DNA of 28,396 bases, taken from a virus. The stretch lies in the IMG/VR virus record IMGVR_UViG_3300044695_000691, positions 1-28,396 of that record. One strand, 5' to 3'. This document shows, piece after piece, positions 20,030 through 23,753 of the stretch. Numbering within the stretch: position 1 is the first letter of the stretch; the number at the start of each line of letters is the position of its first letter. Under the pieces are notes generated by a model. It made no database searches. It saw only the letters and a program-made list of their open reading frames with translations, and was not told the DNA's origin. Both the position numbers and the translations under genes were made by a program.

Positions 20030-20041
20030 AGTGTTACCTTA
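20021..20041 (-). repeat. Translation-start repeat, copy 1 (152-residue gene)
   Basis: Twenty-one bases identical to 19558-19578. It carries the ribosome site, ATG and first codons of the 152-residue gene and the last base of the terminase stop region. Confidence 0.8.
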
Positions 20042-21298
20042 AAAACCCGAAATTACGTCAAGGGGCTCCCACTCATCTTCTTGGTCATCTTGGAAGTATG
20101 AAGTGACAGCCAGTTGGTCAATGTACGATAGGGCATCTGGTAGGTCATCATGCACACCTTGGGATGGGAACATCAAGAGTTGATCTTTGAATTCATCCCA
20201 ATCTTCCTCGGAGTTCAGCACAATTCTGCCATGCTCAAACCGTCCTTGAAGTGACCAAATGATACGGTCGGTTTTTTTACGATTACCGTGGGTCAAGTCA
20301 ACTATGTGCGAATATACATTATTCTTCCGCATCAAGTCACTCAAATACGGCAAAACTGCGTTTTTTAGCGCACCCTTCTCAATTCCTATGGAAAGTGGCC
20401 TGTATTCCCGAATCTTGAGCAAAATGGTGGCGGCAGTCTCCCGAATGTCCCACCGTCCATAAACAATCTCTTTGACGAACCATTTACCCTCGTCTGTCAC
20501 CTTGACCACAGCAATGGCAGTCTGGTCTAACCGCTTCTTGGAGTTAGCCGCTTGTTTAGCAACCTCCTCAAAACCAGCCAAGTCAACAGCAATGTAGTAG
20601 CTACCATACTCAGGCTCAACACCGTATTTCAGCCATTCTTCCTTGAAAACGTCAGAACCAGCGTTTGTGAACGAGGCCATATATTCTTGCTTGAAAGCAA
20701 AGGAGGAGAGGGTTTTCTTGGCAGACTCAATCTCAGTTGGGTCGATCAGGGGATTGTCTTGGGTAGTGAAATGCCAAGATTTCCAATCTGGGTCAGATTC
20801 GCTCTCGCCCAATCTAAACAAATCGTAGAACCAGTTTCGACCTTTTGGAGTGCCCAAAAATAAGGCTCTACCTTTTCTGTCTGACAGAGATGCTCGAATA
20901 ACTTGCTCCCAAGCCTCTGGCTTAATGTCTGCTACCTCATCCAATACGGCATAGGTCAAACTCACGCCACGGAGGGTATCTGGTCTATCAGCACCACGGA
21001 CGTATATGGTTGCCCCATTGATTGTGGTGATGTCTTGATTATTGATGTGTGCAGATTGGATAACCTCTTTACCAAGTTCCATCAAGACTTGCCAAATAAT
21101 CTGCCTTGCTTGACCGTTGGTTGGAGCCACATAAAGTACAGCAGAACCTTGTGGACAACGTAAAGCCTCAATCAATAGAGTAATAGCGCATAAACGAGAT
21201 TTACCACACCGTCGACCAGCAGCTACGACCTTGAACCTCGATGTGTCTTTAAAAACTTCCTCTTGCCACGGCAACAGAGAAAAATTCAAATCAGCCAT
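20039..21298 (-). CDS. terL: Terminase large subunit
   Basis: 419 residues. Walker A is AAGRRCGKS at 26-34, Walker B ends in LDE at 119-121, and the coupling motif LGTPKGRN is at 148-155. The C-terminal nuclease of RNase H type shows Asp239 (YIAVDLAG), Glu307 (GIEKG) and the HDDLPDA motif at 383-389. The ATPase pumps DNA into the prohead and the nuclease cuts concatemers. Start at 21298 is chosen because GAGG lies six bases before it; an ATG 18 codons upstream has no ribosome site and lies deeper in the preceding gene. It overlaps the TerS-like gene by 8 nt. Confidence 0.93.
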   Translation of the reverse strand: MADLNFSLLPWQEEVFKDTSRFKVVAAGRRCGKSRLCAITLLIEALRCPQGSAVLYVAPTNGQARQIIWQVLMELGKEVIQSAHINNQDITTINGATIYVRGADRPDTLRGVSLTYAVLDEVADIKPEAWEQVIRASLSDRKGRALFLGTPKGRNWFYDLFRLGESESDPDWKSWHFTTQDNPLIDPTEIESAKKTLSSFAFKQEYMASFTNAGSDVFKEEWLKYGVEPEYGSYYIAVDLAGFEEVAKQAANSKKRLDQTAIAVVKVTDEGKWFVKEIVYGRWDIRETAATILLKIREYRPLSIGIEKGALKNAVLPYLSDLMRKNNVYSHIVDLTHGNRKKTDRIIWSLQGRFEHGRIVLNSEEDWDEFKDQLLMFPSQGVHDDLPDALSYIDQLAVTSYFQDDQEDEWEPLDVISGF

Positions 21299-21698
21299 TT
21301 TTTGCCTCAATATCCTCTGCGTCGACCACTGGTGCATGGGAAATCTCCCCAATGCCTGTGATGTTGATTGTCACTGCTGATCGCTGCTTTCCTTCTTTCT
21401 CAAACAGGGAGACAGGGAGCATTCTGTCCATACAGAGTTTGATTGCAGCCATCTGAGCAGGGTGTTCGTCATTCATGGCAATCTCAACTGCCTTGTGGAC
21501 AACGTTAGAACCAGCACTGTTTATCAGGAGTTCTTTGAGTTCTTTGACTCTTTGAAGTTCAGTCTTGGGAAGTAGAGCAGGAGGACTATCGGCATAGCGA
21601 GCCATAGTCATAGGTTTGGGAATAGCAACAGCTACAGGCTTGGGCGGCCTACCACGAGGCTTTTTCAGTTTGTCAGGTAAAGCGTCTATTGCATTCAT
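21291..21698 (-). CDS. Putative terminase small subunit
   Basis: 135 residues directly upstream of TerL, overlapping it by 8 nt. The N-terminus is basic with KKPRGRPPKP, an AT-hook-like minor-groove motif (about residues 12-21). A helical centre (about residues 46-95) is followed by a short beta-like, acidic tail. TerS proteins recognise the packaging site and hand DNA to TerL; position, size and a DNA-binding N-terminus fit. No known family is proven. No strong ribosome site precedes the ATG. It is the first gene of the leftward block. Confidence 0.62.
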   Translation of the reverse strand: MNAIDALPDKLKKPRGRPPKPVAVAIPKPMTMARYADSPPALLPKTELQRVKELKELLINSAGSNVVHKAVEIAMNDEHPAQMAAIKLCMDRMLPVSLFEKEGKQRSAVTINITGIGEISHAPVVDAEDIEAKNG

Positions 21699-21730
21699 CT
21701 TTTGTCCACAGGAGGGAAGTTAGCGATTAC

Positions 21731-21759
21731 TTTACATCAGAATAGGAATCTTGTATAGT
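21731..21759 (+). promoter_or_regulatory. Sigma70-type promoter, rightward
   Basis: TTTACA (21731-21736), a 17-base spacer, then TATAGT (21754-21759), each hexamer one mismatch from consensus. Transcription would start near 21766 and run toward the early block, with about 665 untranslated bases before the first ORF. Confidence 0.6.
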
Positions 21760-21765
21760 GCAGAC

Positions 21766-22400
21766 AAACGGGGATCAGAACCCATCCCTCTATGCGGTTG
21801 AGCCGACCAAGTAGGATAAACAGGTAAATCATGTGGTTTCTAGTAGGCTCCCTCATGTCGTGATGACATCATGGGAAAGCTGAACAGGACAAGTTGCGTG
21901 AACAGGTCTGTCTAACAGATATAACTGTAACCAAGATAAACGAGAGGCTCACTCCTTACTTAGGAGTATTACCCGTCTTCCCCCTCGGGTTCTCGTCCAT
22001 TGTTACTGCTACATAAGAACATTCCTTCTTTTCTTAAAGCCAGTCTTGTTGTGTCAAACATCTAGATTTAGCTTTTCGAGTGGGAGGGAGGCTACAACAA
22101 TATTCTCTCTACTCACCCACCCCCTCCCCCCCATAGTAAGCACTCACACTAGGCGAAGTAAGCGCACACTAACTAGCGGCTTGATACGACAGATATTATG
22201 TTAACTAGTTGGGCATAGGGAAGTGATGCACCATTTCAGGGCATCCTAGGGAATCCAATTCATACCGCATTATGTTAAATAGATAGAACCTATTGATTAG
22301 CAGTTATTAATAGATATAAATAGGGGATAGATTAGGGTTTGTCCTAATGTTTATTGTTTGACATTACCCGATAATATATTCACTGCAAACGAAAAGCAGT
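21766..22400 (+). ncRNA. Gene-free, hairpin-rich region; candidate noncoding RNA or leader
   Basis: No credible ORF lies here. From the left, hairpins are visible at 21771-21788 (GGGAT/ATCCC), 21795-21808 (CGG/CCG or GGT/ACC), 21849-21876 (TCCC plus ATGTC pairing with GACAT plus GGGA) and 21907-21919 (TCTGT/ACAGA). A three-way junction at 21940-21996 has outer stem ACGAGA/TCTCGT enclosing ACTCCT/AGGAGT and ACCC/GGGT. Further right are a purine/pyrimidine tract (22079-22132) and an AT-rich stretch (22262-22380). The last part has ATTAGG/CCTAAT (22331-22348). A promoter precedes it. It could instead be an origin or a set of regulatory sites. Confidence 0.4.
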
Positions 22401-22404
22401 GTTT

Positions 22405-22430
22405 CAACAATCAACTCAATAGGTGTAAAG
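22405..22430 (+). repeat. Early-gene leader, copy 1
   Basis: Consensus leader with AACA, CAACT, then AATAGGTGT. AGGTG at 22421-22425 can pair with the 16S rRNA 3' end, five bases before ATG 22431. A CACTGC/GCAGTG hairpin (22381-22401) lies just before it. Confidence 0.75.
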
Positions 22431-22616
22431 ATGAGTACATTTCCTAAGACAGCACAAGAAGCATTAAGCCAACTACAAGCCATTCCTACAATCAAGGAGG
22501 ACTACAGTGCCTTCAGATTAGACAGGTTATTCCACTATGACCCATATTGCCTAGAAGGGTATTCCGTAACAGAAAAGCAATGGGTGGTCTTGTGGTATCC
22601 AGAAATGATTGATTAA
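22431..22616 (+). CDS. Small early protein, unknown function
   Basis: 61 residues. The first half is helical (AQEALSQLQAI). The second half is aromatic-rich with Tyr/Trp/Cys (HYDPYCLEGYSV, then QWVVLWYPE). No known motif. It is the first gene of the rightward block, preceded by leader copy 1, and is followed by a TTCG-loop hairpin. Small host-takeover proteins are typical of such positions, but no function can be assigned. Confidence 0.6.
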   Translation: MSTFPKTAQEALSQLQAIPTIKEDYSAFRLDRLFHYDPYCLEGYSVTEKQWVVLWYPEMID

Positions 22617-22632
22617 TCTGACAGTTCAGCGT

Positions 22633-22650
22633 TAAGCCCTTCGGGGCTTA
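22633..22650 (+). other. TTCG-loop hairpin
   Basis: TAAGCCC and GGGCTTA pair around a TTCG tetraloop. No T-run follows, so it may stabilise the transcript 3' end or act as a processing site rather than terminate. The same stem recurs at 24910-24925 with a T-run. Confidence 0.7.
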
Positions 22651-22675
22651 TCAGTGCATTGTCAAATGTGCTATT

Positions 22676-22702
22676 TCAACAACAAACTTAATAGGTGTTC
22701 AC
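22676..22702 (+). repeat. Early-gene leader, copy 2
   Basis: Contains TTCAACAACAAACTTAATAG; AGGTG is at 22693-22697, five bases before ATG 22703. Nearly identical to copies 1, 3 and 4. Confidence 0.78.
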
Positions 22703-22927
22703 ATGAAATATCAAAAGCCAATCAATATCTGGAATGTCGTTCCCGCATCACGCATCAAAGACATTCAGCCGGGTCAATGGGTCTATGCTGGAGACAAGGC
22801 GGACAAGGGAATTTTCTTAGGTGTAAGGGATAGTGGTGTAGTGGTTTGTGCTTGGTATCACAATGCTAAAAATTCCAAAGACTTTAGGGGTTATGTTAAA
22901 ACATTGAGACAATATGCCATTCGTTAA
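22703..22927 (+). CDS. Small early protein, unknown function
   Basis: 74 residues. Predicted beta-rich: the centre IQPGQWVYAGDKADKGIFLG then VVVCAWYHN suggests a small SH3-like barrel. The C-terminus is basic (FRGYVKTLRQYAIR). No family recognised. Preceded by leader copy 2 and followed by two hairpins. A nucleic-acid-binding or host-modulating role is possible but unproven. Confidence 0.62.
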   Translation: MKYQKPINIWNVVPASRIKDIQPGQWVYAGDKADKGIFLGVRDSGVVVCAWYHNAKNSKDFRGYVKTLRQYAIR

Positions 22928-22938
22928 ATTCTAGGGTT

Positions 22939-22990
22939 AAGGGTATTGGAAGCAGTACCCTTGCACCTAGGGATTTTCCTAGGGCTTTTT
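22939..22990 (+). terminator. Tandem hairpins with T-run, possible terminator
   Basis: First stem AAGGGTA/TACCCTT (22939-22962), then CCTAGG/CCTAGG (22966-22983), followed by GC and TTTTT. The second hairpin looks like a weak rho-independent terminator that would attenuate downstream genes. Confidence 0.5.
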
Positions 22991-23003
22991 AATAGGTGTT
23001 CAA
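22988..23003 (+). repeat. Early-gene leader, copy 3
   Basis: TTTAATAGGTGTTCAA leads to ATG 23004; AGGTG is at 22994-22998, five bases before the start. It overlaps the T-run of the preceding hairpin. Confidence 0.75.
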
Positions 23004-23309
23004 ATGGATAAACAAGTGCAACAAATGGAAAGCCTAAACAGGGCCAAAAATGGCGATTCTCTGGCAAACTTTCCCGCCATTATTTCGGGCTTTATGGATA
23101 AGGGAATCAATGCTAGCGACATCATTCCAAGGGTTAATGTGTTCACCTATAACGCTTGGAAAGCCCTAGGCCGTCAAGTAAACAAAGGCGAGCATGGCGT
23201 GAAAGTAGTTACATGGATAGATACACATGACAAGGCCACAGGGATGCCTACAAAGTTATGCCGCCATTCGACTGTTTTCCATATCTCGCAAACTAATCCC
23301 ATTCAGTGA
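23004..23309 (+). CDS. Short ArdC-N-like protein
   Basis: 101 residues. The segment TYNAWKALGRQVNKGEHGVK (48-67), then VVTW and VFHISQT near the end matches the N-terminal single-strand-DNA-binding domain of ArdC-type antirestriction proteins. The usual C-terminal metallopeptidase part is absent; the protein stops soon after the domain. It may bind single-stranded DNA at entry or interfere with restriction. The similarity is to a domain, so antirestriction activity is an inference. Confidence 0.65.
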   Translation: MDKQVQQMESLNRAKNGDSLANFPAIISGFMDKGINASDIIPRVNVFTYNAWKALGRQVNKGEHGVKVVTWIDTHDKATGMPTKLCRHSTVFHISQTNPIQ

Positions 23310-23316
23310 TTATTTG

Positions 23317-23346
23317 CTACACCTAGGGTTTGTCCCAATGGTGTAG
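23317..23346 (+). other. Hairpin with embedded GGG/CCC stem
   Basis: CTACACC (23317-23323) pairs with GGTGTAG (23340-23346), with an inner GGG/CCC stem around TTTGT. The inner part repeats an element at 22331-22348. It separates the ArdC-N-like gene from the next cassette. Confidence 0.6.
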
Positions 23347-23373
23347 TGTTCAACACTATCACACAATCAATCG

Positions 23374-23397
23374 TCAATCAACTTAATAGGTGTTCAC
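23374..23397 (+). repeat. Early-gene leader, copy 4
   Basis: Same consensus as copy 2 (CAATCAACTTAATAGGTG); AGGTG is at 23388-23392, five bases before ATG 23398. Confidence 0.78.
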
Positions 23398-23589
23398 ATG
23401 AAATTTGCATTCATCCCAAAAGCCCAATACAAAATCGGGCAAATCATTCAAGTGCATGGTAAGCCCATGCGTGTAGAGTCTTACACACACACTGGCAAGA
23501 ACGTCACAGTACACACGCTAGAGAATGCCCCTAAGTTTCAGAGAATCATCTGCATCTGTACCGATGCACCCTCAATCGAAGGGGTTTGA
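23398..23589 (+). CDS. Small early protein, unknown function
   Basis: 63 residues, probably beta-rich (YKIGQIIQVHGKPMRVES, then VTVHTLENAP), ending with two Cys (ICICTD). No family recognised. Size and strand pattern suggest a small barrel like the 74-residue neighbour. It is preceded by leader copy 4, and a 27-residue membrane micro-ORF starts one base after its stop. Confidence 0.6.
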   Translation: MKFAFIPKAQYKIGQIIQVHGKPMRVESYTHTGKNVTVHTLENAPKFQRIICICTDAPSIEGV

Positions 23590-23590
23590 C

Positions 23591-23674
23591 ATGGATAAAT
23601 CAGAAATTCTTTACGGTATCGTGTGCGTGATTGTATTTGCTTGCATCGGTATCATGCTTGCATGGCGGGGTTAA
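23591..23674 (+). CDS. 27-residue single-helix membrane micro-protein (candidate)
   Basis: ATG at 23591, one base after the preceding stop. After a short charged start (MDKSEI) nearly the whole peptide is one hydrophobic helix, ending in basic WRG. A GAAGGGG stretch lies about seven bases upstream. Tiny membrane peptides of this design occur in phages, often modulating host membrane enzymes or lysis. It is too short for composition to prove coding. Confidence 0.45.
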   Translation: MDKSEILYGIVCVIVFACIGIMLAWRG

Positions 23675-23753
23675 GAATACAAACCATTGCCCTTGTTCTA
23701 GGGCTTTGGCTTGCATTTTGACAATGTAAGGCTTGCAGGGGCTTGCCTGTGCT

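Follow-up and report, generated by a model that had tools for sequence, protein, structure and literature searches.

Comparative evidence for a structured RNA that is exchanged with unrelated modules behind a phage promoter

The DNA analyzed here, referred to as the window, is the 28,396-base virus record IMGVR_UViG_3300044695_000691 of IMG/VR. Its leftward structural genes encode the portal, the major head protein and TerL, followed last by a gene that was named TerS because it is placed directly before TerL, its product having no library match of its own. Rightward early genes begin at 22431. The initial annotation had described the space between these blocks, from 21731 to 22400, as promoter-driven, gene-free and highly structured, and as a possible long structured phage RNA of the class that includes GOLLD and ROOL, or a regulatory leader. 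The gap is indeed free of genes, as the first ORF starts 665 nt past the expected transcript start at about 21766 and no supported ORF lies between. The features of the region are collected in Table 1.

Table 1. Positions and supporting observations for the genes, signals and RNA elements of the region
Feature	Position	Strand	Basis or remark
TerL (large terminase subunit)	20039..21352	-	phrog_2, E 1.4e-50
Putative TerS (small terminase subunit), divergent left neighbour	21291..21698	-	place directly before TerL
Sigma-70-like promoter TTTACA-17-TATAGT	21731..21759	+	spacer AGAATAGGAATCT, imperfect dyad
Left edge of exchange (TTGTATAGTG / module)	21760	+	adjoins expected start at about 21766
Type A structured RNA (predicted)	21766..22000	+	covariation; covariance model R1, 189.6 bits on the window
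Helix P1	21771-21775/21784-21788	+	loop CAGAACCC; GC:25, CG:5
Helix P2 (21789..21815)	21789-21793/21811-21815 around 21796-21800/21804-21808	+	
Helix P3, closing the central multibranch loop	21823-21825/21930-21932	+	covariation
Helix P4	21829-21834/21896-21901	+	4/6 pairs change on both sides
Helix P5	21839-21848/21879-21888	+	covariation
P5 extension hairpin	21851-21853/21872-21874; 21856-21859/21865-21868	+	covariation
Hairpin P6, fast-varying stem	21902..21928	+	21903-21927 CG/GC/UA
3' domain	21940..21996	+	invariant AUAAACGAGAGGCUC, P7, P8, outer stem
Hairpin P7	21951-21956/21962-21967	+	kept in 95/95
Hairpin P8	21971-21975/21986-21990	+	kept in 95/95
3' domain outer stem, ACGAGA/UCUCGU	21940-21945/21991-21996	+	partly conserved
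Right flank common to all module types	22013..22173	+	purine tract, CCCCCTCCCCCCC tract, AGTAAGC repeats
First early ORF downstream of the RNA	22431..22616	+	no family
Early ORF, N-terminal ArdC anti-restriction domain	23004..23309	+	PF08401, E 5e-07

Several features of the early genes deserve mention. The ArdC-like ORF holds the N-terminal domain alone (101 aa), with the protease part missing, and its product is thus predicted to be a truncated or split anti-restriction protein. A small early ORF at 23763-24014 matches PF24229 (E 1e-22), a family named after the Staphylococcus phage terminal-repeat protein TreK. In addition, the start regions before successive early genes (22405-22430, 22670-22702 and 22985-23003) are alike, with TTTCAACAA...CAAACTTAATAGGTGT or AATAGGTGT preceding the ATG.

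No DNA similarity to the stretch was found among 50,697 GenBank phage records, and the closest phage TerL proteins were less than 60% identical (about 26-33% among the matches listed), so that no cultured relative was found. A 20-mer search of GTDB genomes gave two matches, both within coding sequence and without the RNA. Relatives were instead taken from IMG/VR, where 80 loci were fetched with TerL, which served both as bait and as the basis of the tree, and at least 120 stretches with an exact 17-mer of the RNA; we take these records to come from an uncultured family of tailed phages. A search of the open literature, which leaves most subscription papers outside its reach, returned no description of the locus.

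The rightward promoter claimed in the initial annotation is present, and it is the sole plus-strand match in the 28 kb in a strict scan with a spacing of exactly 17 nt. Among related loci, 189 of 207 match the promoter at 8 or more of 12 positions, nearly always with the 17-nt spacing, in versions that include TTTACA/TATAGT (111 loci), TTGAAC/TATAGT (27) and TTGACA/TACATT (15). The RNA thus has its own promoter, kept across homologues, as is characteristic of phage structured non-coding RNAs. A dyad with arms of at least 4 nt occurs in 62% of 29 distinct promoter spacers versus 16% of shuffles (for example AGAATCAGATTCT and AGGGTAATCCCT, among others), and may perhaps represent an operator.

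Evidence for the RNA, designated type A, comes from comparison of its relatives. We counted covariation over 39 pairs in an alignment of 34 diverse sequences, with 500 shuffles and slid versions of the structure as controls. Standard pairs occupied 98.8% of the cells (shuffled 85.9%, slid 36-49%), 20 of the 39 pairs changed on both sides (shuffled mean 15.2, slid 2-6), cells changed on both sides numbered 186 (shuffled 65.8, slid 4-24), and the covariation score was 0.372 (shuffled 0.171, slid 0.03-0.08); none of the 500 shuffles matched any of these four measures. The structure was derived from the same sequences, which favours it over its slid versions, yet the gap to the controls and the compensatory types, such as CG/AU/GC/UA at 21847-21880, far exceed that bias. 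Similarly, stacked complementary column pairs ranked top in mutual information over 95 unique sequences, and the two sides of helix P3 were 100% complementary with changes on both sides. The RNA was assigned to the plus strand on account of several columns that are G-U in all or most sequences; read from the opposite strand, these would be A-C. In contrast to covariation, folding energy was neutral in comparison with shuffled sequence, with ordinary z values of -0.86 for 21766-22000 and -1.14 for 21766-22430. The description as highly structured is therefore not borne out by energy and required comparative evidence, which does support it. Compensatory changes, the mark of a phage structured non-coding RNA, had been proposed in the initial annotation as the check to make in related phages; they are clearly present, and a real conserved structured RNA in the stretch behind the promoter is strongly supported by the alignments. 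The covariance model R1 matches the RNA at type A loci only; a seeming off-site copy at L146 was a chance match without the RNA.

The helices differ in how they vary. The hairpins suspected near the 5' end correspond to P1 and P2, both confirmed by comparison. The P1 stem is GGGAU/AUCCC in the window and GGGG/CCCC or GGGC/GCCC elsewhere, the window-type rows being one base out of register in the 34-sequence alignment, and P2 is a nearly invariant core, 100% paired, with one compensatory change (L079, UCCAU/GUGGG). All three P3 pairs change on both sides and are 100% paired in the 34 sequences, and the P5 extension hairpin is missing from some relatives. A three-way junction had been proposed at the site of the 3' domain. 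Both of its inner stems are kept in all 95 relatives, the P7 stem in 11 sequence variants (shuffled control 22%), whereas the outer stem is only partly conserved, reaching at least 4 bp in 57 of 95 (20% when shuffled) and the full 6 bp in 6 of 95. The type A RNA is about 235-250 nt long and carries an intrinsic terminator in none of 142 loci. The right limit of 22400 given initially was too long, because the exchanged RNA unit ends at about 22012 and what follows, 22013-22430, is a flank of its own that every module type shares.

Type A has no match among the 4,227 families of Rfam 15, either at gathering thresholds over the whole window or at E ≤ 5 over 21600-22500. This search, including GOLLD and ROOL, had been suggested with the initial annotation, of whose interpretation the structured phage RNA behind a promoter stands, on covariation, and the assignment to GOLLD or ROOL does not. 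A group I or II intron was also rejected, as Rfam gave no match and the RNA is intergenic and behind a promoter, and no match to the phi29-type packaging RNA family was found in Rfam. Type A is accordingly placed, on its sequence, as a putative structured phage RNA of the general kind that lies outside GOLLD, ROOL and Rfam.

Elsewhere in the family, the space from this promoter to this right flank is occupied by modules unrelated to type A, termed B, C1 and C2. Module B is about 400 nt long and structured: in 13 sequences, 24 of its 127 predicted pairs change on both sides. An intrinsic terminator closes it in 21 of 24 loci. C1 and C2 have a common leader, in which a terminator-like hairpin leads directly to a T-run and an ATG. 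This leader is followed in C1 by an HNH endonuclease ORF (PF01844, E 3.6e-11) and in C2 by a short ORF (about 75 codons) that matches no family; the two modules are not pure RNA genes because they contain these protein-coding frames. A further RNA-like stretch follows the ORF in both, in which 9 of 62 pairs change on both sides in C1 and variation in C2 is too little to judge. R1 gave no sequence link from A to the B and C modules, and Rfam searches of the B, C1 and C2 loci, at gathering and relaxed thresholds, returned nothing beyond chance except a tRNA-like element near TerS. At least A and B, and probably C1/C2, are RNA families that are absent from Rfam and are backed by base-pairing evidence. 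An apparent likeness of segments of A and C1 to conserved stretches of 23S rRNA is, in our view, probable coincidence.

The modules are mutually exclusive. Of 51 loci that were chosen by TerL and include 500 nt upstream of TerS, 41 have a single module each (A in 27, B in 6, C1 in 5 and C2 in 3), and the 10 without a module are those with a distant TerS (57-63% identity). All 41 close relatives thus bear one module and none lacks one; the sampling followed TerL similarity and not the modules, and is unbiased in that respect only. No locus was found with two module cores, and the counts rest on labelling by module cores only. Pattern scans picked up stretches of type B (23), type C1 (30) and type C2 (10), and all A, B, C1 and C2 loci with enough flank have the module at the same site and in the same direction, divergent from TerS. 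The version of the promoter is independent of the module type, as TTGAAC precedes A (L007), B (L010) and C1 (L008).

The edges of the exchange are sharp. In every compared pair of phages with different modules, identity ends at the -10 box or start site; in nine pairs the last shared bases lie at or just past the -10 box, and between C1 and C2 they are the end of the common leader hairpin. Between the window and the type B locus L209, for example, identity is 100% over 21727-21760; there is no similarity over 21761-22012 (252 nt in the window against 399 nt in L209), and identity stands at 94% over 22013-22246, with no match over 22246-23745, which places the right edge of the exchange at 22013. 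On a TerL tree of 118 sequences, at least 34 module switches are required, the minimum possible being 3. L019 (B) and L018 (C1) differ in module with TerL 99.0% identical, and other phages with different modules have TerL 98-99% identical; recombination within TerL could inflate the switch count, but not these near-identical pairs. Mutually exclusive exchange at the predicted transcript start is shown by these comparisons, and what is new here is the RNA families together with the swapping of unrelated RNAs at one promoter.

The right flank and the region upstream of TerS show further elements. At 22083-22132, a conserved purine tract followed by CCCCCTCCCCCCC, kept in most of the distant module-less relatives too, is a possible packaging or replication signal. 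Exact DnaA boxes (TTATCCACA), 2-5 per locus, lie upstream of TerS in L016, L026, L064, L068, L074, L076 and L077, which suggests a replication origin in these module-less relatives. L074 also has a private insert at the equivalent site, about 220-300 nt from TerS, with a GTTGGCGCA ... TGCGCCAAC stem and then nine T, perhaps a further small RNA. Directly before TerS, L023 (2352-2459, plus strand of the loci) carries the tRNA-like element, as do L018, L019, L020, L022 and L052. Its acceptor, D and T arms are good (44 bits with the Rfam tRNA model), but a 54-nt insert takes the place of the normal anticodon arm and ARAGORN did not accept the element as a tRNA; its T-arm sequence occurs in 16 of 236 TerS loci. 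A second variable spot, absent from the window, was seen in 72 of 236 loci, L023 among them, on the opposite strand in the gap that separates TerS from the promoter. Its hairpins have conserved arms (CGCAUGGAGAUUG ... CAGUCUCCAGCCGUG) and variable interiors, sometimes in two copies, and the spot may be a further structured RNA, belonging to the TerS leader.

To our knowledge, GOLLD and ROOL had no clear function for years. Both are structured non-coding RNAs of phages that were found by comparative genomics, and they are unrelated to each other although their settings are similar (PMC12286853). The modules described here resemble them in being structured phage non-coding RNAs found by comparative genomics, and in being mutually unrelated in similar settings. 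They differ in length, since GOLLD and ROOL span roughly 600-800 nt and the exchange unit is 252 nt in the window (A) and 399 nt in B, so that type A is not a giant RNA. They differ also in that A, B, C1 and C2 are without Rfam matches, that no tRNA island is present, and that all of them use a single promoter slot next to TerS, where they swap among near-identical phages. HK022 put, a structured RNA of about 70 nt and two hairpins, likewise lies just behind an early phage promoter; it is, however, not known to be replaced by unrelated RNAs, whereas modules of 235-400 nt swap behind one promoter here. P4 CI and P1/P7 c4 are short antisense immunity RNAs of phages with targets in their own leader, and share with the present RNAs a position in an early leader and alleles that differ among relatives. 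For the RNAs described here, no Rfam match to this group and no leader target were found, and the inverted repeats are short and imperfect. At intronless homing loci with free-standing HNH genes, exchange through flanking homology occurs as in C1, which likewise has an HNH gene; A and B, by contrast, are without a protein, and the swapped cargo is structured RNA.

We consider that these observations are best explained by a small RNA gene in an allele-exchange slot, the product of which would be a discrete early RNA acting on the host (probability roughly one half). The conserved host-type promoter would start an RNA whose anatomy, as covariation shows, comprises a hairpin domain at the 5' end, a multibranch domain in the centre and a 3' domain with two hairpins, and which is predicted to end at about 22000-22012. 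As the comparisons show, the slot holds one of several unrelated modules, A, B or C1/C2 with its small ORF, and never two. Since the exchanged segment begins at the start site and stops where the common right flank starts, the modules are likely to be swapped by homologous recombination through that flank and the promoter/TerS side, and in C1 the module-encoded HNH endonuclease could drive its own spread. The RNA may then be made at once after infection and act in trans, a reading that we base on the following: B has a terminator, the unrelated RNAs exclude one another and turn over, the slot stands first in a mosaic early region, and this region has the ArdC-like ORF, which may provide a local counter-defence context for the slot.

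The strongest competitor is a cis-acting leader of the early operon, by which polymerase would be modified or termination controlled, through processive antitermination as in HK022 put or through attenuation, the modules being regulatory specificities. We hold it to be a tentative but serious alternative. The RNA lies directly behind the early promoter and ahead of the rightward early genes, type A is without a terminator, so that read-through into these genes is possible, a dyad lies within the promoter spacer, and the terminator at the end of B and the terminator-like hairpin at the start of C1/C2 are possible antitermination points. However, A and B are far larger than put, the first gene lies 430 nt past the RNA, and action in cis only gives less reason for the frequent exchange of unrelated RNAs. 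An RNA linked to replication, in an origin region and with a role in priming or copy control like plasmid RNAI/RNAII, would make the modules incompatibility groups. The AGTAAGCACTCAC repeats and AT-rich stretch of the right flank, and the DnaA boxes that distant module-less relatives have in the same intergenic region, are in line with this; we nevertheless judge it unlikely, given that exact DnaA boxes are almost never found in module loci (means 0.00-0.02), that the repeats are few and uneven, that the module is missing from distant relatives and that no antisense partner is encoded.

Two further explanations are much less probable. That the modules merely parasitise the locus, C1 by HNH homing into the site, with RNAs useless to the phage, would agree with the HNH protein of C1 and the frequent, site-specific exchange, but A and B are without protein genes, no other module is as common as A, the type A structure is under clear purifying selection, and every close relative has a module; we see very little room for it. 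A packaging RNA like phi29 pRNA is slightly less credible still: the modules do adjoin TerS/TerL in loci with enough flank, but the phage has a TerS-like gene and a TerL with the ordinary two domains, no Rfam pRNA family matches, and unrelated modules interchange while TerL remains 98-99% identical, unlike a fitted motor part.

With regard to what the discrete early RNA would do, action on the host, for example takeover of the cell or the blocking or decoying of a defence, is put forward as somewhat less than an even chance, because mutually exclusive alleles that turn over rapidly where a mosaic early region begins are typical of loci with such functions, and cis control of early-operon transcription is nearly as likely. 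Phage early regions are generally mosaic, and exchange alone is therefore not proof of counter-defence.

The pattern suggests one fast-changing job done by interchangeable RNAs. It is conceivable, although we advance it with less assurance than action on the host, that unrelated RNAs (A, B, C1/C2 and possibly more) interchange in an RNA-allele slot as solutions to one fast-changing problem, such as evading or silencing host defences; if so, RNA counter-defence would be an exchangeable repertoire, as protein counter-defence genes are. The family, which is abundant, offers a natural experiment in which near-identical genomes carry a different RNA behind the same promoter, so that function may be tested by module swapping. 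Thus, RNA, besides protein, may serve as the cargo of fast-evolving early loci.
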